This document shows positions 22,545 to 34,605 of a stretch of 64,000 nt of DNA, in pieces (positions within the stretch are counted from its first letter, which is position 1; every line of letters begins with the position of its first letter). The position numbers and the translations under genes were made by a program. The stretch is taken from positions 1-64,000 of the forward strand of contig NZ_FMWL01000011.1 in assembly GCF_900103005.1 (NCBI RefSeq). The letters are read 5' to 3'. The stretch is from Acidaminobacter hydrogenoformans DSM 2784. Its GTDB lineage: Bacteria; Bacillota; Clostridia; Peptostreptococcales; Acidaminobacteraceae. The notes under the pieces were generated by a model. The model searched no databases, was not told where the DNA came from, and was given only the letters and a program-made list of their open reading frames with translations.

Positions 22545-23133
22545 TTTTTTCACCTCCACGCAAATGGCTATATTAACTCCCGCAAAACAAAAAAATCACT
22601 CAAACCCATTAACAAGCGGCAGGAATCTCATTTCATCAGTCTGCCGACAGTCATAGATTTTAAGTGATTTAGGGACTTTGCTTTGATTTGAATTTAATCT
22701 TATGCTTTTATTCTATCAAACGTTTGTTCTTTTTCAAAGAAAAATCGAGAAAAATATTTAGTCATTTTACTGCATTTCCATTAGCGCCCTTAATTGAATA
22801 TCGAGAAAATAGGCAAATGATCAAGGGTGCATTCACTATTTTATTTTGTTAATCATGACTTTAATGCAAGCACTTATGTGGGATTCATCCCATGACTGAA
22901 GTCACGGGTGTTCTCCCTGAGCATCATAAAAGCGCTGGTCCACTGACGGTAAGTAGTGGGACTCAGCATGGTTTCCCAAACCAGGCTGACGGGAGTGGAG
23001 AGGGTTATTTTGAATTCGAGTGTTTTCATAACTTTAAGCCCCCTTTAAGCTTCGAATGCCATACTTTAGGTGTGGCACACTGTGCCGTCCGTACGAAAAA
23101 GAAAAAAATTCGAACATGAGGTGGAATTAATTG

Positions 23134-24786
23134 ATGAGGCATCTAAAATTGAAGTATAGCACAGCTGCGGAAGCACTATCATTACTGCTCGCGTCCGTTC
23201 TGATGGCAGGGGCATTGACTGGCTGTGGCCAAACAGGCACATTAAACACAGCAGCCAACACCAGCACCAACACCAGCACCAACACCAATTTGACCATTTC
23301 ACCCGAAATCAGCACGGCAGAAATCAATCCTTCCGCACCCGAATACGCTGAAAAAATCTTTGGCACAGACATCATCACCCTGGAGATTCTTGCGGATGAA
23401 GCGCAGTGGCAGACTATGCTCGACAACGCCACGGAAGAGGCATACATCAAAGTGGATGTGGTGATCAATGGAACGACTTTAAAGGATGTCGGCATACGCC
23501 CCAAAGGGAATTCCAGCCTTAAGCAGGTGGCCTCCTCGGACAGCGACCGCTACAGCTTCCGCATCAAGTTTGACAAATACGTTGAGGGGCAGACCTGCTT
23601 TGGCCTCGATCAAATGGTGGTCAACAACATGATGGGAGACAATTCCTATATGAAGGAATACATTTCCTATGATCTCATGAAGACCATAGGTGTGGACACC
23701 CCTTACTTTGGATTTACGGACATAACGGTCAATGGGCAGCCCTGGGGCCTTTACCTGGCGGTGGAGCTGTATAATGACAGCTATGAAGAACGAGTCTACG
23801 GGGACACTACCGGTGCGCTCTTCAACGTCAAGATGAGTATGGGCCAGGATCAAATGCCAGGAGAGGGAAGGATGCCCATGGTGGACAGGCCTGTCACTGA
23901 CGAACGACCCGAGACGAACACAGGCGCCACAGCGTCTGCGTCACCCACCCAAATCCCAAGCGACTTACCAGAAGACCGTACGCCCGGCGACTTTCCAGGT
24001 GGCAAAGTCGGCAACATGGGCGCCAGGAATGGCGGGAGTCTGGCCTATACGGATGATAACCCCGAAAGCTACAGTGACATCTTCGACAACGTGGTTGGTG
24101 ATGTAGACACAGCGGCCAACCAGCGCGTCATCACTGCTCTGAAAGCGCTCTACTCTGGCACCGAGCTTGACACCTACTTTGACACAGACGCGATCCTTCG
24201 CTACCTTGCCGCCCATACTGTCGTCGTCAATCTTGACAGCTATTCCTCCTCCATGGCGCAGAACTATTATCTCTATGAGCGCGCCGGCCAGCTCACCGTA
24301 CTGCCGTGGGACTATAACCTGGCCTGGGGCGGCTTCCAGAGCGGTGACGCGGACTCCGTCATCAACTTCCCAATCGATACCCCTGTCAGCGGCGTATCCA
24401 TGTCAGACCGTCCGCTCCTGAACCAGCTTTTATCAGATGAAACCTATTTGGCACAGTACCATGATCACCTCAACACCCTCCTCCAGAAGTATTTTGCCGA
24501 TGGTCACTTTACCCAAAAAATCCAATCCCTCCATACTTTAATCTCCGACGACGTTAAAAATGACCCCACCGCTTTCTGCACCTACGAGGCATATCAAACC
24601 GCGGTCGAAGCGCTGATAGAACTGGGAAACCTCAGAGCGCAGAGCATCCAGGGGCAGCTTGACGGCAGCATTCCATCCACCACAGAAGGGCAGCAGTCCA
24701 GTCCATCCGTTTTGGTTCCTGCCGGTGACCTACAGATTGAGGCTTTGGGCTCAATGATGGGCTCGGGGAAAAGGGGGGAAAGGTGA
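23134..24786 (+). CDS. cotH: CotH kinase family lipoprotein
   Basis: About 550 residues. A signal peptide with lipobox LTGC is followed by a Thr/Asn linker made by a 12-base repeat, and then a CotH domain: GIRPKGNSS, YSFRIKFDKYV, NNMMGDNSYMKEYISYDLM, WGLYLAVELY, and the catalytic-site motif LPWDYNLAWGG near residue 390. CotH proteins are secreted protein kinases of spore coats; lipoprotein forms also occur in non-spore settings, for example with surface or polyphosphate genes. GAGGTGG lies 9 bases before ATG 23134. A copy of TGCCGATGGT at 24495-24504 encodes Ala-Asp-Gly. Confidence 0.85.
   Translation: MRHLKLKYSTAAEALSLLLASVLMAGALTGCGQTGTLNTAANTSTNTSTNTNLTISPEISTAEINPSAPEYAEKIFGTDIITLEILADEAQWQTMLDNATEEAYIKVDVVINGTTLKDVGIRPKGNSSLKQVASSDSDRYSFRIKFDKYVEGQTCFGLDQMVVNNMMGDNSYMKEYISYDLMKTIGVDTPYFGFTDITVNGQPWGLYLAVELYNDSYEERVYGDTTGALFNVKMSMGQDQMPGEGRMPMVDRPVTDERPETNTGATASASPTQIPSDLPEDRTPGDFPGGKVGNMGARNGGSLAYTDDNPESYSDIFDNVVGDVDTAANQRVITALKALYSGTELDTYFDTDAILRYLAAHTVVVNLDSYSSSMAQNYYLYERAGQLTVLPWDYNLAWGGFQSGDADSVINFPIDTPVSGVSMSDRPLLNQLLSDETYLAQYHDHLNTLLQKYFADGHFTQKIQSLHTLISDDVKNDPTAFCTYEAYQTAVEALIELGNLRAQSIQGQLDGSIPSTTEGQQSSPSVLVPAGDLQIEALGSMMGSGKRGER
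23257..23286 (+). repeat. 12-bp tandem repeat in the CotH linker
   Basis: AACACCAGCACC twice plus a half unit, encoding an Asn-Thr-Ser-Thr linker. Copy number changes would keep the frame and only lengthen the linker. Confidence 0.75.
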
Positions 24787-24873: not shown

Positions 24874-26787
24874 TTACAGTATGCGCCCCACCTTCAGCTG
24901 TCGCTGATTCAAATTATACGCAGCGTCTTTCAGGTTCCTCTTTGCAATTTCAATGATTTGCTCAGTTTTCATCACATGGTTATTTTCATCGACAATCTTC
25001 ATGCTTCCCCTTACGGGCTTCGTTCTCCAGTTTTTTGCGTGCCTGAATTCTTCAGTTTCACCCCATAGGTAGGGCACAGGCAAGAAGCCGGCAGCAAAAA
25101 TGATGTAAAACCCCTCTGGCGAATATGGATTTTGAATCGAACTTTCTATCGCAGCAATCACTTGAATTGAGGCTTGGTAAAGTGCTGCAGATCGTTCATC
25201 AACATCAGGATTTTTTCCCATATCCTCAATCTTTCCCATTTTCCTGAGTTCACGATATTTGCGTAATGCATGCTGTGTGATCTGAATGCTTTCATTGATT
25301 ATTTCAGGTGTAGCCAAATGAGACGCCTCAGAAAAGCTTACGACATGAATAATGGGTGGGCTCATTTCATTATAGGGGTCAATATCGTCCATCAATGCCG
25401 TTACCGCTGCCAATTGTATTCTTGCTTCATAAAGGTCAGGTTTGAAGTAGTCCAGTCCTGCCCTTGGTTGTAACAAAACCTTGAAGCTGCTGTCTTCTAA
25501 ACTTTTGACAAGCTTAATCATGGCGCGGGATTTCGCTAAGTCTTGAATCCCCCAGGTAAACCTTGGCGTATTGAGCATGTTTTGCAATATGAAAGTTTTT
25601 ATGCCAGATTTTTTTGCGAGCTTTGCTGCCAAATAAGCAGACACGATATAGGTGACATCGTCCGCGCCCCTGAAGGCAAAATGGTGTGAGACGTTGGCTT
25701 CAAACGGCTTATCTGTGGTCGCAATATATTTAATGGTCTCAAAATGCTGCTTTAAATTTGTATAGACATCATATGGACCGCGTTCGTCAAGCTTGTTGAA
25801 CCACCACAACGACAATGCATGCCAACAGATATTCAGGGTTTGCTCATGCATTTGTGCGAGGGTCGGGATATTTTTTGTACCTGCATAAGTCCTGACCAGG
25901 AGTGGTCTTGCGGCCTCCCAAATCATTCTATATTCCTCTGGTGAATTGACAGGGACGCCGCCGCCGTTGGCTTTGTCCTCCCAATCCTCGCCAAAGTTGG
26001 ACTGTGTTAATTGAGAGCTTCCAATTGAAAGGATATCGAGGTACTGAGTTTTGGCCAAAGCCTTTGCCCAGGCCATGAACTCATTTACAGACTCAAGACG
26101 CGTCAATCCAGAAGAATACGGTCCGACATGCGCTCTCATTAACGGCGTGAAGCTTTCATTCATGTTTGCATGAATGCGTTTTGTGATGGAATCGCGAATA
26201 GTTCCGAACTCAGGGTAGTTTGATCTGTCAATGGGTTTAAAATTCAGGTAATCCTGAGAATCTATGATTTCCTTACCGAAAGACATCAAAAAATCATCAT
26301 AATGGCTGCCCTCATACAGATCAGTCGGAATACTGTCTTCAGAAACACCCATCTTTTCGAGCGTCTCTCGAATGGATTCGCCACCTATAAAGGTTTTAAC
26401 CATGCCGTTAAACTCTTTTTCAATTGCGGCACAAGCTCCAGGCAGACCGCCAAAGAATAGGGCCTCAATTTGGCCGCCTTGAAATTTCATCAGCTGTGCT
26501 TGCTTTATTTCTTCAATAAGGTAGCCCATCATGTTGACGGCATCTTCCTGATCCAGCCGGTAGCTGATCCCCAAACGCTCGATCTTGTTGGATCTCAGCC
26601 AGTCGACAACAACTTTTCGCCGCGATTCATGTTTGTAGTCATTCATAGCAGCTGCAATTAAATCGTCCGCCATAACGACCTCATAACCACAGTCACGCAG
26701 CAGCTCCGCTGCGGCGTTAATTCCCATTGTATGCGCGTCAATAGCCGGTTTTATGAATCCATATTTTACGCCTATGGAATTATTCAT
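24874..26787 (-). CDS. cobalamin-binding mutase-like protein (B12 domain plus TIM-barrel-like domain)
   Basis: 637 residues. The N-terminal 150 residues form a B12-binding domain: D17-x-H19-x-x-G22 supplies the axial histidine, and the later FFGGLPG / FIGGES glycine pairs fit the nucleotide-tail pocket. The remaining 450 residues resemble the barrel subunit of glutamate mutase-type enzymes in size and style, but I cannot match it to a known enzyme. Known single-chain mutases usually carry the B12 domain at the C-terminus, so this order is unusual. Its start overlaps the stop of the opine-dehydrogenase-like gene by 4 bases (ATGA), so the two are translationally coupled. A radical rearrangement of an amino acid is the likely reaction type. 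Confidence 0.7.
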   Translation of the reverse strand: MNNSIGVKYGFIKPAIDAHTMGINAAAELLRDCGYEVVMADDLIAAAMNDYKHESRRKVVVDWLRSNKIERLGISYRLDQEDAVNMMGYLIEEIKQAQLMKFQGGQIEALFFGGLPGACAAIEKEFNGMVKTFIGGESIRETLEKMGVSEDSIPTDLYEGSHYDDFLMSFGKEIIDSQDYLNFKPIDRSNYPEFGTIRDSITKRIHANMNESFTPLMRAHVGPYSSGLTRLESVNEFMAWAKALAKTQYLDILSIGSSQLTQSNFGEDWEDKANGGGVPVNSPEEYRMIWEAARPLLVRTYAGTKNIPTLAQMHEQTLNICWHALSLWWFNKLDERGPYDVYTNLKQHFETIKYIATTDKPFEANVSHHFAFRGADDVTYIVSAYLAAKLAKKSGIKTFILQNMLNTPRFTWGIQDLAKSRAMIKLVKSLEDSSFKVLLQPRAGLDYFKPDLYEARIQLAAVTALMDDIDPYNEMSPPIIHVVSFSEASHLATPEIINESIQITQHALRKYRELRKMGKIEDMGKNPDVDERSAALYQASIQVIAAIESSIQNPYSPEGFYIIFAAGFLPVPYLWGETEEFRHAKNWRTKPVRGSMKIVDENNHVMKTEQIIEIAKRNLKDAAYNLNQRQLKVGRIL

Positions 26788-27866
26788 AACAAGGCCTCCT
26801 TCAGGTTCTCTTTAAATCCGTCGTTGATGGACGAAATATCCAGATGCGCCAGATTACGACCATTTTTTCTGAAGTCAACGCATAACAGCTTTGTCGCCAA
26901 ATCAATAATCAGGGTGGTGTGATTCATGTCCAGACCGAGCTTTAGACCAATAGCTTCTAAAGGCACCAGACCACAAGGGACATCTTCAAAAATATATCGA
27001 TGCTCTAAAGAGCCTGGCGCTTCAATAGTTTTGTAAGCTTCATTGGCTTGAATGCAGTCATAAAGTGTATTTCCCGTCACATGATACGTCCTGATCATCC
27101 ATTCTCTGGTGGATTCAACCTTATACCCTAATGCCTCGGAGACCCTGACGCGTTCAAGGTCAATTTTTTCAATGAATTTGCCGATCGTTGGCGTAATCCC
27201 ATCATAGTAATATTTGTAAATATTTTTCTTGCTCTCGGTCCATCCGGTGTTCAGCAGCAAAGGCGCGCAATGAAGCACCATGCCGACATTTCCAATTGAC
27301 GTCTGAATCATAGAGTGCGCAGGGGTAAAATATTTATGTAGGCACTCAGGCAAATAATCAAAGATCTCTAAATTTGATGGTAAGTCAAGTGAAGCGATCA
27401 GCACTGACTCTTTGAATGCAATAATATTGACGGCATCTTCATCCGTTTTTCTGCAAGTATATATGATCGTCTGCGTTTCAGCGACTATTTGCTCATGCGT
27501 CTTATTAAACTTTTCATAGATTGCTTTAAATTCCAAAGCGCCAAAGGTTCGCCCGGGATTCAATACAATAGCCGTAGATTTATTAATGTTTTTCGCGATT
27601 AACTCAGCCAGTGCCCTGTGTGAATTTGCGGGTGTTGTGACTAATACAATATCCGGGTCCTTCAAAGCTTCAGAAATTACATCCGTCACACAGTGGACTG
27701 AAAAATTTCCACTGATGATTCCGCTTGAGCGAATGCTGTGCGTTTTTATCAGTTTCTCTATAGACCGACGCGACCTGTTCCAAATGGTTACTTGATGACC
27801 CTCTTTACTTAAGTGCGCTGCCATTGCCATGCCTGAGTTACCGGCGCCAATTACAGTGATCTTCAC
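26784..27866 (-). CDS. NAD(P)-dependent octopine/nopaline (opine) dehydrogenase family protein
   Basis: About 360 residues. Rossmann motif ITVIGAGNSGMAMAAHLS at the N-terminus, and an opine dehydrogenase-type helical C-domain (CAPLLLNTGWTES, then RYIFEDVPCGLVPLEAIG). The family makes or cleaves N-(carboxyalkyl) amino acids, or oxidises related substrates, with NAD(P). GTG 27866 has AGGTG 6 bases upstream and is preferred over GTG 27875. It is the first gene of a two-gene minus-strand operon with the B12 protein. A related enzyme occurs at 61241-62482 in another operon. Confidence 0.8.
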   Translation of the reverse strand: MKITVIGAGNSGMAMAAHLSKEGHQVTIWNRSRRSIEKLIKTHSIRSSGIISGNFSVHCVTDVISEALKDPDIVLVTTPANSHRALAELIAKNINKSTAIVLNPGRTFGALEFKAIYEKFNKTHEQIVAETQTIIYTCRKTDEDAVNIIAFKESVLIASLDLPSNLEIFDYLPECLHKYFTPAHSMIQTSIGNVGMVLHCAPLLLNTGWTESKKNIYKYYYDGITPTIGKFIEKIDLERVRVSEALGYKVESTREWMIRTYHVTGNTLYDCIQANEAYKTIEAPGSLEHRYIFEDVPCGLVPLEAIGLKLGLDMNHTTLIIDLATKLLCVDFRKNGRNLAHLDISSINDGFKENLKEALL

Positions 27867-28233
27867 ACCGTTCACCTGCCTTTCAAAATGAATTTCATAT
27901 GTCCTGACTTTCTTAGAGGTTTTGTTTATTATAACCTAAATTTCGTTCAAATATAAACTTCGGCATAGAAACCTGCGTCTGGCACCTTTTTTCTCTGGAC
28001 TTCAAAGCCATGCCCTTTTTTTTGCCGATGGTTCCCCAACCCAGCTAATGGGTAAATACAGCCGCTTAACGATCTTGTAAACGCCATACCAATCACACCT
28101 ATACTACCGGGAAATGGAGCTTGGCTTCGTTTCCTTTAATTTTAGATCTGTGATGGGACTTTTGACCAAGTCATCAAGTTGAATAATCGTCTTGTTATGA
28201 TATCATTAAGAAAAAAACAACGGATGTGATACC
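27867..28233. other. divergent intergenic region with one TGCCGATGGT
   Basis: Lies between the opine-dehydrogenase operon (minus) and the sigma-54 activator (plus). It holds an exact TGCCGATGGT at 28023-28032 directly after a run of eight T. No gene with a ribosome binding site is visible, and no clear promoter was identified by eye. Confidence 0.5.
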
Positions 28234-29913
28234 ATGGCCATCGCGGATTTGATAATCCAGTACAGTGAGGATGACAAAATCATAGCAATCGATTACTTGG
28301 GTGATGAGCTTGAGTGGTTCAAAGAGCTGGGCAGTGAACGCTTCCTCAATGAAAAGCTCTTCGACGCTTTCGGAGACATAAAAAACCACGACATCCTTGA
28401 ACTCAACACCAAACTCTTCAAAGTCCAGTTCGTGAAACTGGGCACTCAAAAGCAGCTCCTCCTCAGCCAGGACAGCCTCATGCTCAGTCTCTTCAAAGAA
28501 ACCATAGACAAAGTGTCTGAAGGCATCCAGATCTTTGACCGCAACGGTTATTTCATCCACGGAAATCCTGCAAGTGAAGCATTGGAAGGTTACGACACTA
28601 TTGATTTTAAAGGCAAGCACTTACTTGACCTCTATGATCTCTCAGAGGAAATGAGCACCACGCTCAGTGTCATCAGGACAAAGAAACCCGTCATCAACCG
28701 TTGTGACAGGTTTCAAGCAAAGAACAACAAAGAGCTTGTGACCATTAATTCGGGCTTTCCGTTGATGATTCAAGACGAAATCTATGGTGCGTGCGCGTTT
28801 GAAAGTGATCTGTCCGTCATCAACAACATCAAAAACAGGTCTTTCAATTTGGAAGCTTTCATTCGAAATGAGCAGCCCGTTTTGAACCAAAATATGTACA
28901 CCTTCAAAAAAATCATTCACCAATCAGAAAAAATGGCAGAGTGCATCCGTTTCGCAAAAAAAATCGCGCTGACACATGTGAACGTCATGATTACGGGAGA
29001 AACCGGTACTGGTAAAGAAATGTTTGCACAGAGCATCCACAATTTCAGTCCAAGAGCTGACAAGCCCTTTGTGGACGTTAATTGCAGCGCTGTACCTTCC
29101 AATCTGGTGGAGAGCTTGTTCTTCGGAACCGAAAAAGGCGCTTTTACAGGAAGCATGACAAAAAAAGGCTTTTTCGAGCTGGCGGAAGGTGGAACCCTGT
29201 TCCTTGACGAGATCAACGCCATGAGCATGGAAATGCAAGCCAAACTCCTGAGGGTCCTCCAGGAAAAGCGCTACCAGCGGATTGGCGGCAGCCAGTATCA
29301 TCAGTGCAATGTCAGGGTCATCACCGCTTGCAATGAGGACCCTCAGTCCCTCATTGACCAGCAAATGATGAGAAAAGATTTCTATTACCGCATTTCTGCC
29401 CTTTCTGTCCACATCCCACCGCTAAAAGACCGCAAAGAAGACATCGCCATGCTCGCAGCGCATTTCGCCCAGCGGCTCTGCGAGGAGTACGGCAAGCCCA
29501 ATTTGACCTTGACGCCAGACATGCTTGATATCCTCACGCATCACGACTGGCCCGGAAACGTCAGGGAACTGCGACATGTGATTGAGCATGCCGTTCACCA
29601 GGCGAATGTAGAAGAGCAAGTTTTCAGTCTGGCGCATTTTCCCGTCTATTTGACAAAGGGTGTTTCTGTGATTCACACTGCCATCAGTGACTCTGCCGAT
29701 GGTCATTCGATCCCACAGCTCCCACCCCAAAGCCAAACTCTGAACGATTTACTGGATGCTTACGAGCAAAACGTTGTGCGTGAAGCGCTGAACCGGTGTA
29801 ATGGCAACATTTCCAGGGCGGCAAAGTCACTCGGGCTCAGCCGGCAAAATCTGCAATATCGAATACGAAAATTCGAAGCATTATCTCATGAACAAGATCA
29901 AGAACAGACATAA
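28234..29913 (+). CDS. PAS-domain sigma-54-dependent activator, Fis type
   Basis: 559 residues. A unique N-terminal 80 residues, a PAS domain (about 85-200, DKVSEGIQIFDRNGYFIHGN), an AAA+ domain with Walker A GETGTGKE, Walker B TLFLDEINAM and the R-finger region, and a Fis-type helix-turn-helix at the end (GNISRAAKSLGLSRQNLQYRIRKF). The sigma-54 loop reads GAFTGS, not GAFTGA. It sits directly upstream of the perfect sigma-54 promoter at 30145, so it very likely controls the BCCT/lyase operon. TGCCGATGGT at 29694-29703 encodes Ala-Asp-Gly. Confidence 0.9.
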   Translation: MAIADLIIQYSEDDKIIAIDYLGDELEWFKELGSERFLNEKLFDAFGDIKNHDILELNTKLFKVQFVKLGTQKQLLLSQDSLMLSLFKETIDKVSEGIQIFDRNGYFIHGNPASEALEGYDTIDFKGKHLLDLYDLSEEMSTTLSVIRTKKPVINRCDRFQAKNNKELVTINSGFPLMIQDEIYGACAFESDLSVINNIKNRSFNLEAFIRNEQPVLNQNMYTFKKIIHQSEKMAECIRFAKKIALTHVNVMITGETGTGKEMFAQSIHNFSPRADKPFVDVNCSAVPSNLVESLFFGTEKGAFTGSMTKKGFFELAEGGTLFLDEINAMSMEMQAKLLRVLQEKRYQRIGGSQYHQCNVRVITACNEDPQSLIDQQMMRKDFYYRISALSVHIPPLKDRKEDIAMLAAHFAQRLCEEYGKPNLTLTPDMLDILTHHDWPGNVRELRHVIEHAVHQANVEEQVFSLAHFPVYLTKGVSVIHTAISDSADGHSIPQLPPQSQTLNDLLDAYEQNVVREALNRCNGNISRAAKSLGLSRQNLQYRIRKFEALSHEQDQEQT

Positions 29914-29927
29914 TCTTATGTAATATA

Positions 29928-29942
29928 GCAAAATAATTTTGC
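29928..29942. promoter_or_regulatory. candidate enhancer palindrome 1
   Basis: GCAAAATAATTTTGC, a perfect odd-centred palindrome about 215 bases upstream of the sigma-54 promoter. A near-identical palindrome occurs at 30013. Paired palindromes upstream of a -24/-12 promoter fit activator binding sites. Confidence 0.5.
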
Positions 29943-29944
29943 GT

Positions 29945-29974
29945 AAAGTGCCAAAAAAATTGGCGCTTTTTCTT
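29945..29974 (+). terminator. terminator after the sigma-54 activator
   Basis: Stem AAAGTGCCAA / TTGGCGCTTT with a G-T pair and a T-rich tail, directly after the activator gene. Confidence 0.75.
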
Positions 29975-30012: not shown

Positions 30013-30027
30013 GCAAAAATAATTTGC
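30013..30027. promoter_or_regulatory. candidate enhancer palindrome 2
   Basis: GCAAAAATAATTTGC, matching palindrome 1 except near the centre, about 120-130 bases upstream of the sigma-54 promoter. Confidence 0.5.
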
Positions 30028-30144: not shown

Positions 30145-30161
30145 TTGGCACGAGGCTTGCA
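30145..30161 (+). promoter_or_regulatory. sigma-54 (-24/-12) promoter of the BCCT/lyase operon
   Basis: TTGGCACGAGGCTTGCA fits the consensus TTGGCACG-N4-TTGCA perfectly. The start of transcription is expected near 30173, about 30 bases before the BCCT start codon. Confidence 0.92.
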
Positions 30162-30201
30162 ATATAGGGAGATACCAAAATAAATACCTAGGAGGTTTCA
30201 A

Positions 30202-31767
30202 ATGTCTGTTGAATCCGTAATAGAACAGAAAGTTAAGAAGCAAGGGATCCGAAAGGGTGTTTTCTGGCCATCCATCCTCGTCGTTGGCGGGGCTGCCATC
30301 CTTGGCACCGTCAATAACGCACTGCTCACTGAAGTCGCGCTGAATAACTTCCTGTTTTCTCTCAGAACCTTTGGCTGGCTCTACCAAATTATCTCTATTG
30401 TCGCACTCATCCTGGTTTCCATCATTACCTTCTCAAAGCTGGGCAAGATCAGATTTGGCGGAGATGACGCCAAACCAAAGTATTCCTTCATGACATGGTT
30501 TGCCATGGCACTGACCGGCGGGATCGCCACCGGCGTCGTCACCTACGGTGCCAATGAACCTATCATCTATTTTGGCAGTATTTACGGCGAAATGGCTCAG
30601 ACCGGTATTGAGCCGGGCACAGCAACGGCCGCGATTTTCTCTATAGCACGCAGCTTTTATAACTGGACCTTTATCCCTTACGCCATGTACTCACTTTGTG
30701 GTCTCGTCATAGCTTATGTCTATTTCAACCGTAAACAGTCCCTCTCAGTTACCGCATCTCTGGTGCCGTTATTTGGGGAAAAAGTCACCAAAGGCATTTG
30801 GGCAAATATCATTGATACACTGTCACTTCTTGCAATTGCTCTTGGACTGGCATCCTCTCTGGGCGCAGGCTTGGCGCTGGTGGGTTCCGGTGTAGAATCC
30901 GCCTTTGGCATAGAGCAAGGGCCGATGGTCTGGCTGGTCCTCACCCTCATCATCACAGCGACGTTTACCCTATCCTCGCTTCTGGGTATAGACAAAGGCA
31001 TCAAGCATCTGTCTGATATAAATGCGAAAGTGTTCTATGTCCTGCTTGGCATACTCATTGTCGTCGGTCCAACCCTCTATATGCTTAAAATGTCGACCGC
31101 AGGACTCTCCATGTGGCTTCAGAACTTCTGGGGCTGGGGACTTGATGCTGGCGAGGTGGGCGGTGAAGCCCTCGTCATGTGGTGGACGCTTTACGACTGG
31201 GCAATTTGGATCGCTTATGCGCCACTTATGGGTATTTTCCTTGCCATTATCTCCTATGGCAGAACCATCCGTGAATTTATGATGATCAACTGGATTTTAC
31301 CATCTGTCTTCAGTATCGTTTGGTTCGGCGTATGGGGATCAACGGCGCTTTATTGGCAGCAGGAAGGTCAACTTGACCTGATCAGCACCATTCAGGGCAA
31401 CGGCGCGGTTTCAGGACTTTGGGCGTTTCTCGCGCACATGCCGCTGGGCATGATTTTTATCCCGATCGTCATGATCACTTTAATCCTGTCCTTCTCCACG
31501 GCGGCGGACTCCATGACCCGCACGATCGCTTCTCTCTGTACCGAAAACATGAAGCACGATGAAGAGCCGCCGACCTGGCAGAAGTTGGTGTGGGGCCTTT
31601 CTATAGGCTCAATTGCCTTTTTCATGGTCGCTTATGCAGGAGGCGCCCAAGGCGTTGACGGCGTCAAGTATCTGGCGGCAGCTGGCGGCACCACAGTGCT
31701 GTTCATCTTCGTCCTTCAAGTCATCTCAGCGATCAAGATGTTCTTTATTGATGAAATTGTAAAATAA
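30202..31767 (+). CDS. BCCT family betaine-type transporter
   Basis: 521 residues, twelve membrane segments. The family core is visible: TLYDWAIWIAYAPLMGIFLA (the WxxYWxWW-like helix region), SYGRTIREFM, and TAADSMTRTIASL. BCCT carriers import quaternary ammonium compounds such as betaine, carnitine and choline. The gene has AGGAGG before its ATG and stands first in a sigma-54 operon with an ammonia-lyase homologue. A histidine betaine such as ergothioneine would satisfy both proteins. GCCGATGGT (9 of 10 bases of the repeat) occurs at 30921-30929. Confidence 0.9.
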   Translation: MSVESVIEQKVKKQGIRKGVFWPSILVVGGAAILGTVNNALLTEVALNNFLFSLRTFGWLYQIISIVALILVSIITFSKLGKIRFGGDDAKPKYSFMTWFAMALTGGIATGVVTYGANEPIIYFGSIYGEMAQTGIEPGTATAAIFSIARSFYNWTFIPYAMYSLCGLVIAYVYFNRKQSLSVTASLVPLFGEKVTKGIWANIIDTLSLLAIALGLASSLGAGLALVGSGVESAFGIEQGPMVWLVLTLIITATFTLSSLLGIDKGIKHLSDINAKVFYVLLGILIVVGPTLYMLKMSTAGLSMWLQNFWGWGLDAGEVGGEALVMWWTLYDWAIWIAYAPLMGIFLAIISYGRTIREFMMINWILPSVFSIVWFGVWGSTALYWQQEGQLDLISTIQGNGAVSGLWAFLAHMPLGMIFIPIVMITLILSFSTAADSMTRTIASLCTENMKHDEEPPTWQKLVWGLSIGSIAFFMVAYAGGAQGVDGVKYLAAAGGTTVLFIFVLQVISAIKMFFIDEIVK

Positions 31768-31821
31768 TTCGGTGTCCGCGCCAGACAGAATTAAACCTAA
31801 GACATTGGAGGCACGACCCTG

Positions 31822-33420
31822 ATGAAAAGTTTGAAAACCAATTTGAAATTAGAAGAAGACAGATTTGAGGATACTGCAATGGTAGAAGGTGAGAGTCGCA
31901 GGATTGTCGAGCTTGGCGGCACAGCCACCTTAGAAGCGTTGGTCGCAGTAGCGAGGCACAAAACGGAAGTTGCTTTCTCAGATGCTTATTGCGAACGGGT
32001 CAGCCGTTCGAGAGCTCTCGTTGAAAAATGGATTCGCGAAGGCAGGGTCATGTATGGCATCACTACTGGCTTTGGCGCTCTGTGTGATCGTGTGATCTCA
32101 GAGGAAGAAACCGCGCAGCTTCAGAAAAATATCATTTTATCCCATTCGACTTCAGTCGGAGAGCCCCTCAGCATTGAACAGACCCGGGCGGTCATGTTCA
32201 TGATGCTGCAGAATATGGGGCAGGGGTACAGCGGCGTCAGTCTGGCGCTTCTGGAAAGAATCCGTCTCATGCTGAATCTGGATCTCATTCCGTTTGCTCC
32301 CCGGGAAGGTTCCGTCGGTTACCTCAGCGTTGAAGCCCATATTGGGATGGCCATTATTGGTCTTGGAAAGATTTTTGAAAACGGTGTTGCGGTGGAGTCA
32401 AGACTGGTCCTGCGCAAGCATGGTCTTGAGCCTTTCGTGCTTGGGGCCAAGGAAGGCCTGGCCCTGATCTCCGGGACCACCAGTCCTACAGCCCTGGCGG
32501 CGCTGGCGATCTTTGACATGAAGGTGTCTACCCTCAGCGCGGACATTATAGGCGCTCTGTCTCTGGAGGTCAACCAAGGCAACATCAAAGCCTTTGATGA
32601 ACGGCTGATGCGGGCAAGACCTTATGCAGAGCAGGGCAATACTGCTGCCAATGTCAGGACATTGCTTCAAGACAGCGAAATTATTAAAGACAGCGAAGGT
32701 CGCCGCCTCCAGGACGCCCTGTCACTGCGGGCTATGCCACAGCTCCACGGCGCCGTCAAACGCACAATTAATGATGCCGTGAGAACTGTTGAAGAAGAGA
32801 TGAACACCTGCAGCGACAACCCTATCATCTGGCCGGAAGGTGCCGATGGTCACGCCATGTCCGGCTGTCACTGCGACTCCTCCTATGTAGGCCTGGCAAT
32901 GGATTCCGCCGCCATTGCCGCTACCATGCTGGCCAAGATGTCAGAGCGCAGAAATTACCGCCTCATCACAGAGCATCTTTCCGGTATGCCCTGGTTTCTG
33001 ATTCAGAATCCAGGTCTCAATTCCGGGCTCATGATCCCTCAATACACCCAGGCTGGACTTCTTAACGACATGAAAACTCTGTCACATCCTTCGTCCGTGG
33101 ACAGTATTCCAACCTGCGGCGGCCAGGAAGATTATGTCGCCATGGGGTACAACGCAGCAAAAAAGGCGTTATCTCTCGCAGAGAAGCTCGAGTATATCCT
33201 TGCGATTGAGCTGCTGTCTATCTATCAGGCACATCAATTTCTTGATCCGGGGATCAAACCGGCATCTGTATCAGCGGCCCTGTTTAATGAGCTTAAGAAA
33301 CATATCCCAACCATGACCCAGGATCAGTTCCTCCATCCGCACATTGAGTACCTGAAAGGTCTTGTACATTCAGGTCGGTTGGTTGAGCTCGCGGAAGAGG
33401 TCGCTGGACCGCTTGCGTAG
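31822..33420 (+). CDS. MIO-less histidine ammonia-lyase homologue, probable ergothionase
   Basis: 532 residues across the aromatic amino acid lyase fold. YGITTGFG (with the catalytic-type Tyr78), the GSVG turn at 163-166 and the central SGTTSPTALA helix are conserved. The Ala-Ser-Gly triad that cyclises to the MIO cofactor is missing: after GSVG the sequence is YLSVEAH. Without MIO ordinary ammonia elimination is unlikely. Ergothionase, which removes trimethylamine from ergothioneine, is a known MIO-free member, and the BCCT carrier upstream would import such a betaine. GGAGG precedes the ATG. TGCCGATGGT at 32841-32850 encodes Ala-Asp-Gly. The activity is inferred, not shown. Confidence 0.75.
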   Translation: MKSLKTNLKLEEDRFEDTAMVEGESRRIVELGGTATLEALVAVARHKTEVAFSDAYCERVSRSRALVEKWIREGRVMYGITTGFGALCDRVISEEETAQLQKNIILSHSTSVGEPLSIEQTRAVMFMMLQNMGQGYSGVSLALLERIRLMLNLDLIPFAPREGSVGYLSVEAHIGMAIIGLGKIFENGVAVESRLVLRKHGLEPFVLGAKEGLALISGTTSPTALAALAIFDMKVSTLSADIIGALSLEVNQGNIKAFDERLMRARPYAEQGNTAANVRTLLQDSEIIKDSEGRRLQDALSLRAMPQLHGAVKRTINDAVRTVEEEMNTCSDNPIIWPEGADGHAMSGCHCDSSYVGLAMDSAAIAATMLAKMSERRNYRLITEHLSGMPWFLIQNPGLNSGLMIPQYTQAGLLNDMKTLSHPSSVDSIPTCGGQEDYVAMGYNAAKKALSLAEKLEYILAIELLSIYQAHQFLDPGIKPASVSAALFNELKKHIPTMTQDQFLHPHIEYLKGLVHSGRLVELAEEVAGPLA

Positions 33421-33501
33421 AATAAACAGGGTGGGAAGCTTGGGGCCAGGGGGAAGAAACCCTTGTCCCGGCTTCCTGATTTGAAAGGAGTTTATAGACC
33501 T

Positions 33502-33798
33502 ATGGCATCATCAGCATCAAAAGTGAGAAGAGAGCGTCAAAACACACCTAAAAAGCAAGTGGCGGTGGATGTTCAAAAGATTTTTCTCTCGCCCCCAAGG
33601 AAACTAAGCGAGCGTGCGATTCTCCTTGGTATGCTGGTGGTGACCTTTATGATATTCTTTGGTCCATTGAAGTTTTCTCAGGTGCCGCCGCTTGAAGCCG
33701 CGTTTACCGCTATGCTGCCAGCTGCGAGCCTTTCCTGGGGCTGGATGGTTTTTTTGAGGTATAAGTTTAGGAAAGGTGAATATCTCAAGCAGAAATAG
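33502..33798 (+). CDS. small two-helix membrane protein
   Basis: 98 residues: a basic 40-residue N-terminus, then two hydrophobic helices (ILLGMLVVTFMIFFGPL and FTAMLPAASLSWGWMVFL). AAAGGAG lies about 12 bases before ATG 33502; an upstream in-frame TTG at 33463 is less likely. It is the third gene of the sigma-54 operon and ends before a terminator. No family recognised; it could be a carrier accessory subunit. Confidence 0.55.
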   Translation: MASSASKVRRERQNTPKKQVAVDVQKIFLSPPRKLSERAILLGMLVVTFMIFFGPLKFSQVPPLEAAFTAMLPAASLSWGWMVFLRYKFRKGEYLKQK

Positions 33799-34046: not shown

Positions 34047-34310
34047 ATGCCAATTATCAGACCCATTACGGACCTTAGAAATACGAACGAGATTTCGGAT
34101 TTGTGTCATTCAAAAAAAGAACCCGTCTTCATTACAAAAAACGGATATGGTGATTTGGTGATCATGAGTATTGAGGCTTATGAAGCAATGATTGACGAGC
34201 AGGAAATAGACAAGGCTATTGCAGAAGCTGAAGCGGAATATAAAATTGACGGTAAACTGTATGATGCAAGGGAAACACTAAAAACCCTCCGGAGGAAGCA
34301 TTTTGGATAA
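34047..34310 (+). CDS. Phd/YefM-type antitoxin
   Basis: 87 residues. The N-terminal PITDLRNTNEISDLCHSKKEP and VFITKNGYGDLVIMSIEAYE blocks are typical of the Phd/YefM DNA-binding fold; the acidic C-terminus (QEIDKAIAEAEAEY) would bind the toxin. GGGGGG precedes the ATG. The downstream toxin overlaps by 8 bases. Confidence 0.9.
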   Translation: MPIIRPITDLRNTNEISDLCHSKKEPVFITKNGYGDLVIMSIEAYEAMIDEQEIDKAIAEAEAEYKIDGKLYDARETLKTLRRKHFG

Positions 34311-34605
34311 GTATGACATTAAGTTGTTATCCAAAGCAATTCGAGATCTCGACAATATTTACACTTATATTGCAAGAGAACTGAACAATCAAGAAGCAGC
34401 ACTTAGCATCGTTGACAAGATAGAGGAAACAATTTTAACTCTTGAGACAATGCCGTTTCGAGGGGCTCAACGTCGAGTCGGAGCCTATGCGAAAAAAGGT
34501 TATAGACAAATTTTTGCTAAGAATTTCATTGTTCTTTATAGAGTGGATCCAATTAATAAACAAATAGTTGTTGTTGCGATCAGATCCATGAGAAGCAGAT
34601 TGTAA
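34303..34605 (+). CDS. RelE/ParE-type toxin
   Basis: 100 residues from TTG 34303, which has GGAGG 8 bases upstream. The ParE/RelE pattern is clear: LLSKAIRDLDNIYTYIARELNNQEAA, MPFRGAQRRVGAYAKKGYRQIF, FIVLYRVD. RelE members cut mRNA on ribosomes and ParE members poison gyrase; the sequence alone does not decide. Co-transcribed with the antitoxin. Confidence 0.9.
   Translation: MDKYDIKLLSKAIRDLDNIYTYIARELNNQEAALSIVDKIEETILTLETMPFRGAQRRVGAYAKKGYRQIFAKNFIVLYRVDPINKQIVVVAIRSMRSRL

Follow-up and report, generated by a model that had tools for sequence, protein, structure and literature searches.

We analyzed a 64-kb stretch of the genome of Acidaminobacter hydrogenoformans DSM 2784 (contig NZ_FMWL01000011.1, positions 1 to 64,000; hereafter the window), in which four genes read in one direction encode, according to their open reading frames (ORFs), a sigma54 activator, a BCCT carrier, a lyase of the histidine ammonia-lyase (HAL) family and a small protein. 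The lyase lacks the triad that forms the 4-methylideneimidazole-5-one (MIO) group of HAL and belongs to a separate MIO-free clade of HAL-fold proteins, here called YL. It very probably acts on a quaternary amino-acid betaine, as a lyase that needs no MIO, and comparative evidence suggests that its main substrate is probably hercynine (N-alpha-trimethylhistidine, histidine betaine), from which this MIO-free trimethylamine lyase would produce urocanate. MIO-free trimethylamine lyases with a HAL fold are a known kind of enzyme; the YL clade, with its predicted substrate, is a variation on it. The system should also take in the regulator gene (from 28234) and the operator at 29928, and its parts are as follows.

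28234-29913, plus strand: activator with sigma54-interaction and Fis-type helix-turn-helix domains and a weak PAS match (Pfam; the ortholog in the same-genus genome G001 is 84% identical and lies in the same operon)
29928-29942, no strand: palindromic operator GCAAAATAATTTTGC, probable activator site (0 mismatches)
29945-29969, plus strand: terminator-like hairpin behind the regulator gene (consensus match only)
30013-30027, no strand: second, degenerate operator copy with 2 mismatches (at 2 mismatches, 4 matches in the window, 0.94 expected)
30146-30161, plus strand: -24/-12 promoter TGGCACGAGGCTTGCA (consensus scan of 64 kb)
30202-31767, plus strand: BCCT-family carrier, probable betaine importer (PF02028, 391.9 bits; cut-off 27)
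31822-33420, plus strand: MIO-free HAL-fold lyase, predicted hercynine (histidine betaine) trimethylamine-lyase (profile, residues, fold, tree)
32308-32334, plus strand: codons for GSVGYLSVE, HAL counterpart GSVGASGDLAPL; the MIO triad is missing (alignment)
33502-33798, plus strand: 98-aa small protein of an orphan family, probably a membrane protein (hydrophobic stretches), behind the lyase (tblastn relatives)

The ORFs, strands and coordinates of a first-pass annotation, made from the sequence alone, were reproduced except for the start of the last ORF, which is most likely ATG 33502 and not 33463. All four genes are under purifying selection relative to their G001 orthologs, the ratio of nonsynonymous to synonymous rates (dN/dS) being 0.085 for the lyase, 0.028 for BCCT, 0.062 for the regulator and 0.096 for the small ORF. 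The two BCCT proteins are 97% and the two lyases 87% identical.

A Pfam search assigned the lyase to PF00221 (517.7 bits) with almost the entire profile covered, and the motifs YGITTGFG and GSVGYLSVEA are present. In an alignment with Pseudomonas putida HAL that spans nearly the whole length, GSVG-ASGDLAPLA of HAL corresponds to GSVG-Y-LSVEA, with Tyr at 142 and a gap at 143-145, so that the ASG triad is absent. The first-pass annotation had likewise described a MIO-less lyase with HAL motifs and YLS in place of ASG. The protein falls below the hutH model (TIGR01225, 486.3 bits; cut-off 539.15) and below the HAL model NF006871 (498.3; cut-off 524). Its predicted structure (mean pLDDT 90.4) matches solved HALs with Z scores of 42.5-45.1, tyrosine aminomutase with 45.3 and ergothionase 6s7j_A with 40.7 (rmsd 2.9, 492 aligned).

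Relatives were searched in one genome per species (84,980 species); 587 were found and the best 80 loci kept. Among these best 80 (of 587), 12 are MIO HALs, and the rest come from Clostridium, Sporomusa, Geosporobacter, Blautia, Acidaminococcus, Oscillospiraceae, Bacillaceae, Acinetobacter, Synergistota, a deltaproteobacterium, Curtobacterium, Polaromonas and others. The 63 YL loci counted below comprise 59 of the best 80, L040, L043, L044 and the window, and they are compared with a set of 17 MIO-HAL loci that includes 11 of the 12 MIO HALs, without L118. L053 and L104, duplicates of L043 and L044, were dropped from locus counts, as were loci whose lyase was hidden or cut in ORF picking (L070, L076, L077, L085, L117, the partial L115 and L131, and L118); the first five of these carry the YL motif. 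Several loci hold two or three closely spaced lyase genes. A plasmid search returned 895 records, all below 60% identity, and the one examined (Smac51) is of YL type, with its gene annotated as histidine ammonia-lyase. A DNA scan for GSVGYL codons matched 61 of 391 genomes, but it is no census because the reversed control also matched in many genomes.

Phylogenetic analyses, which excluded partial rows and a split pair, placed the window lyase with MIO-free relatives and not with MIO-containing HALs. In a careful 36-row tree, the YL clade, which includes the window lyase, has support of 100/99 and the ergothionase clade 100/100; the two are likewise separate in a quick 47-row tree (MIO columns were removed from both alignments). 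In a quick 125-row tree, a single starred clade takes in 76 of the 77 YL rows. None of three groupings was rejected by approximately unbiased tests in which three distant MIO lyases served as outgroup (p 0.137, 0.083 and 0.153). The first value belongs to YL and ergothionase held as one clade, a grouping on which the 47-row tree, having no outgroup, is neutral. MIO may have been lost once or twice.

Active-site residues were compared, in HAL numbering, among 78 YL proteins (Bacillota, Acinetobacter, Synergistota and others), 8 ergothionase-clade proteins and 21 MIO proteins. The triad is absent in 78/78 YL proteins, all of which retain R283, M382, Q413 and E414; among rows with a letter at the position, Y53 is retained in 76/76, T57 in 77/77 and H83 in 74/77. 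Residues Y78, H108, R303, M404 and E436 of the window lyase correspond to Y53, H83, R283, M382 and E414, which we take to be substrate pocket residues of HAL. Position 330 is Asp in 77 of the 78 YL proteins, Glu in all 8 ergothionase-clade proteins and His in all 21 MIO proteins. Tyr280 is changed to Leu in 66/78 YL proteins (Leu in 8/8 of the ergothionase clade) and Asn195 to Ser in 49/78 (Ser in 6/8). In the ergothionase clade, T57, M382 and Q413 are replaced in 8/8 proteins. These counts indicate that the changes at 195, 280 and 330 are common to both MIO-free groups, whereas the 57/382/413 set was rebuilt only in ergothionases. Positions 195, 280 and 329 are presumably located in the HAL active site; PDB titles list F329 and Y280 mutants, agreeing that those two positions were studied. 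Asp at 330 may face the trimethylammonium group, and the 57/382/413 changes of ergothionase may reflect the thiol of ergothioneine.

The first-pass annotation had taken the lyase for a probable ergothionase acting on ergothioneine, which would release thiourocanate and trimethylamine. A HAL fold and a missing MIO triad are both expected of such an enzyme, and Treponema denticola ergothionase (PDB 6s7j/6s7q) resembles the window lyase in both, as well as in Leu at 280, an acid at 330 and, as predicted for the window lyase, a betaine substrate. The ergothionase relatives read often have a BCCT gene nearby, as in the window, and in G001 the BCCT linked to ergothionase (L047) shares 52% identity with that of the window. 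According to one report, ergothionase lacks MIO, few bacteria are firmly known to have it, and a BLAST query with the Burkholderia enzyme gave similarities only to HAL and to phenylalanine and tyrosine ammonia-lyases (PMC13405746). Still, we consider this identification quite unlikely. The window lyase scores 148 bits to Treponema ergothionase versus 269-309 to solved HALs, with identities of 25-26% and 34-40%, respectively, and the two lie in distant, separate clades. At the triad site ergothionase has E-[AG]-D with one residue missing, whereas the window lyase has Tyr and a three-residue deletion, and at 57, 382 and 413 it keeps the T, M and Q of HAL instead of the ergothionase replacements. 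In addition, the window genome already has an ergothionase-clade gene of its own (contig C20), with its own BCCT gene in that stretch, and five YL loci hold hydratases of urocanate type (see below). No window-type sigma54 activator was seen in four ergothionase stretches (L039, L045, L046 and L047), which contain a conserved protein of about 1,000 aa instead; three of the four have a molybdenum-hydroxylase-like gene. The ergothionase-clade genes of L039, L046, L047 and L087 have nearby a gene for a molybdenum-hydroxylase-like large subunit (that of L047 is XdhA-like, below cut-off), two conserved smaller neighbors and BCCT. The name "histidine betaine" catabolism, also used in the first-pass annotation, fits best when read as hercynine; ergothioneine as substrate is not supported.

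It might also be asked whether the protein is a MIO-independent histidine ammonia-lyase or acts on a histidine with fewer methyl groups, as it is nearer to HAL than to ergothionase in both sequence and fold. HutH (PDB 1b8f and 7tqr) shares with it the fold, the imidazole/carboxylate pocket and, in some species, the hut linkage, but the window lyase differs in the missing triad, Asp for His330, Leu for Tyr280, a BCCT partner and sigma54 control. Loss of the triad in every YL protein, the changes at 195 and 280 in most of them and a partner that points to quaternary amines make this explanation very unlikely. Moreover, 15 of the 18 genomes searched also hold a lyase with more than 600 bits to PF00221, and all 20 such loci have an [ASC]SG triad. 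Even more improbable is that the protein is a HAL relic without catalytic activity, serving for instance as a ligand sensor: the loss of MIO is all that speaks for it, whereas the low dN/dS of the lyase, the retention of Tyr53 and Arg283 and the recurrence of the gene neighborhood across many genera argue against it.

The genomic context of YL genes supports a betaine substrate. BCCT is present in 34 of the 63 YL loci and in none of the 17 MIO-HAL loci (P-value = 1.8e-5), and in 28 YL loci it lies within 300 bases of the lyase on the same strand. The first-pass annotation was right to place a betaine-type importer next to the lyase. The BCCT carrier BetP may import ergothioneine, as one source suggests (PMC12689799), which makes BCCT import of hercynine plausible.

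The presence of hutU or hutI in 14 of the 63 YL loci points to urocanate as product. The hydratases of five loci of Bacillaceae and Acinetobacter (L065, L067, L078, L092 and L103) reach 988-1022 bits against hutU (cut-off 375), 683-718 against the thiourocanate hydratase model (cut-off 930) and 710-737 against that for S-methyl-thiourocanate hydratase (cut-off 880); judged by these profiles, they are urocanate and not thiourocanate hydratases. HutI is above cut-off in L078 and L092, and hutG in L092 (307; cut-off 229), being below it in L078 (175). A MIO HAL also occurs within the stretch in L065 and L067. L066, L097 and L100 have longer relatives of hutU, which score 432-455 to hutU, at most 316 to the thiourocanate model and at most 368 to the S-methyl model. 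In the draft genome of Acinetobacter sichuanensis, hutU, hutI- and hutG-cluster genes, a YL lyase and BCCT lie on one stretch. Just one further PF00221 gene was found in that genome; its best score is to a tyrosine ammonia-lyase model (392; cut-off 1000), with 378 to hutH (cut-off 539). Urocanate is thus the simplest product reading there.

Several observations weigh against hercynine and urocanate. Within the stretch examined, 49 of the 63 YL loci have no hutU or hutI, no hut gene lies beside the window operon, and such hut linkage as exists may be a leftover from a HAL ancestor. H83 and E414 do not discriminate, since ergothionase retains them as well, an ergothionase-clade gene shares the stretch with a YL gene in L069, L082 and L087, and the YL protein of L103 passes one NCBI HAL model (526.5; cut-off 524). 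The Polaromonas protein L120 has His at 330 and is long-branched, falling outside the YL clade at an unresolved fork of the 125-row tree. In the window genome, the hutU-like proteins of C17 and C25 score 640 and 647 to the S-methyl-thiourocanate hydratase model (cut-off 880) versus 618 and 637 to hutU (cut-off 375), which keeps a modified imidazole in consideration for this organism.

The last point bears on a further explanation, that the substrate is another betaine, either with a modified imidazole (S-methyl-ergothioneine, ergothioneine sulfonate or ring-N-methyl hercynine) or another aromatic amino-acid betaine. An ergothioneine-sulfonate catabolic pathway is reportedly a further route for a modified ergothioneine. 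Besides the slight lean of the hutU-like proteins, a Cys at position 83 in the C17 paralog, a YL lyase 55% identical to that of the window, and tandem YL genes of different subclades, which suggest several substrates, are in keeping with this explanation. However, the window lyase retains the HAL pocket (H83, M382, Q413 and E414), and five relatives from its own 55-row subclade sit with true hutU, so that we regard another betaine as unlikely and hercynine as the better fit. Roughly 3 kb, with two ORFs on the opposite strand, separate the C17 paralog from a hutU copy, and FtcD is also near; a third hutU match of the window genome is on C22 (402 bits). The C17 locus (L040:6149-18803) combines the YL lyase with BCCT, a sigma54 activator and two operator copies. 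The hutU and FtcD copies of C17 are 90-92% identical to those of C25, and between them only a hutI-like fragment is found.

YL genes are clustered with aconitase X-type genes in L096, L097, L099, L107 and L129, several of them also with genes of the MttB family or for SSF transporters (family scores cover L096 and, for MttB, L107; other loci were read by similarity clusters), suggesting a pathway other than hut in these organisms. The MttB-family genes adjoin the YL lyases in L096 and L107 and are below the trimethylamine-specific cut-off (220 and 305; cut-off 525). A profile search of the window genome did not find MttB (PF06253), so trimethylamine use through MttB is unsupported there.

Control of the operon was analyzed in the same loci. 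The regulator matches Sigma54_activat (216.6 bits) and HTH_8 (44.6), whereas its PAS match (21.9) is below the curated cut-off of 27; of the PAS-sigma54 activator proposed in the first-pass annotation, the sigma54 part is supported and the PAS part weak. The perfect -24/-12 promoter it had reported is confirmed: in the 64 kb, TGGCAC-N5-TTGCA has a single exact match, at 30146-30161 (0.06 expected), and a looser consensus again gave this match alone, though 0.40 were expected. A homology cluster containing the activator has a member in 26 of the 63 YL loci versus 1 of the 17 MIO-HAL loci; being a broad homology group, it may include some paralogs. Among the 26 YL loci with the cluster, 14 have a -24/-12 site 35-199 bases upstream of BCCT or the lyase, whereas only 2 of the 37 without it have one upstream of BCCT (P-value = 1.8e-5; both counts tallied by eye). 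L043 has the promoter but was left out of the count, its BCCT start having been called too far upstream.

With at most one mismatch, the operator GCAAAATNATTTTGC occurs in 14 of the 26 YL loci that have the activator cluster, with 22 sites in all (0.8 expected), in 3 of the 37 YL loci that lack it, with 4 sites (0.6 expected), and in none of the 17 MIO-HAL loci (0.4 expected). Not assigned upstream of BCCT or the lyase among the 22 are the one site of L101, two of four in L105 and one of two in L043. Across the 3.6-Mb window genome, the same search returned the window operon, the C17 operon (two copies) and a site inside one long open frame on C33; intergenic sites are thus only at its two YL operons, and the reversed operator gave zero matches. 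These shared sites suggest that both operons form one probable regulon. With a -24/-12 promoter and an activator with conserved upstream sites, the window operon appears to be sigma54-dependent, and we infer that the activator binds at the GCAAAATNATTTTGC operator.

The palindromic operator and the 98-aa protein are two conserved parts overlooked in the first-pass annotation. Relatives of this protein, found by tblastn, amount to 25 sequences including the window and one duplicate contig, all of them from loci of the YL search or read around YL genes. The same database contains 17 MIO-HAL and 4 ergothionase stretches, none of which gave a match, and the window protein has no Pfam match up to E 10. 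Most matches begin close behind the lyase stop; in L089 the match follows BCCT, and L088 and L094 carry it on the opposite strand. Our guess is that this probable membrane protein is a partner of the carrier.

Taken as a whole, the operon would import and break down hercynine. Ammonia is a poor leaving group, which is why HAL needs MIO, and trimethylamine is a good one. The BCCT carrier would bring the betaine in, and the lyase would take the beta proton and expel trimethylamine directly, leaving urocanate; the release of trimethylamine from a histidine-derived betaine, foreseen in the first-pass annotation, is in this sense probable. The imidazole and carboxylate pocket would be retained from HAL, and the acidic Asp352 (HAL position 330) may help to hold the cationic trimethylammonium. 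Urocanate would then enter HutU and the hut pathway, and the lack of an MttB match in the window genome makes excretion of the trimethylamine probable. Acting through the operator and the -24/-12 promoter, the sigma54 activator would turn the operon on.

Other PF00221 genes of the window genome are two MIO lyases (C25 and C20), the ergothionase-clade gene C20:18739, the C17 paralog and two degenerate neighbors on C20. The latter (L039:4291-7121, minus strand) are adjacent genes for proteins of 453 and 509 aa without MIO that adjoin the ergothionase-clade operon. Their active-site motifs seem complementary, Y53/H83/N195/QED in one and QD..R283 in the other, and they are possibly a heteromeric lyase. 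A MIO HAL relative with Asp at the H83 position (L041:8264-9814, minus strand; G001 ortholog L048:6501-8030, minus strand) lies near a hutU-like gene scoring slightly higher to the S-methyl-thiourocanate hydratase model and is perhaps a lyase for a ring-modified histidine.

Around the operon, a minus-strand pair upstream (24874-27875) was considered as part of the system and rejected, having no homolog in the G001 stretch. It consists of an octopine-dehydrogenase-family gene that overlaps the gene for a 637-aa protein without Pfam match, which resembles a cobalamin-dependent mutase. A CotH-kinase-family gene (23131-24786, plus strand) has a 76% identical relative also near the operon in G001, and a ParE-family toxin gene (34303-34605, plus strand) is close behind the operon.

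In the literature searched, and with no bearing beyond it, we found no hercynine lyase, degradation, catabolism or utilization, no histidine betaine lyase and no hercynase. For the family as a whole, we see an even chance that this widespread HAL-like group is a second MIO-free lineage that converts hercynine to trimethylamine and urocanate, with tandem subclades spread to further aromatic betaines and with BCCT and a new small membrane protein as partners. If so, a likely catabolic enzyme for hercynine would be named, and genes likely named histidine ammonia-lyase (such as those of the Smac51 plasmid and L103) would be trimethylamine lyases, changing annotations in Blautia, Acidaminococcus, Oscillospiraceae and Acinetobacter. 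It would also show how the HAL scaffold works in the absence of its cofactor, with an acidic residue at 330 and Leu at 280 as recurrent features of both MIO-free groups. Finally, gut and soil bacteria would have a route by which a fungal and dietary betaine yields trimethylamine, and this could be one more source of that amine in the gut.

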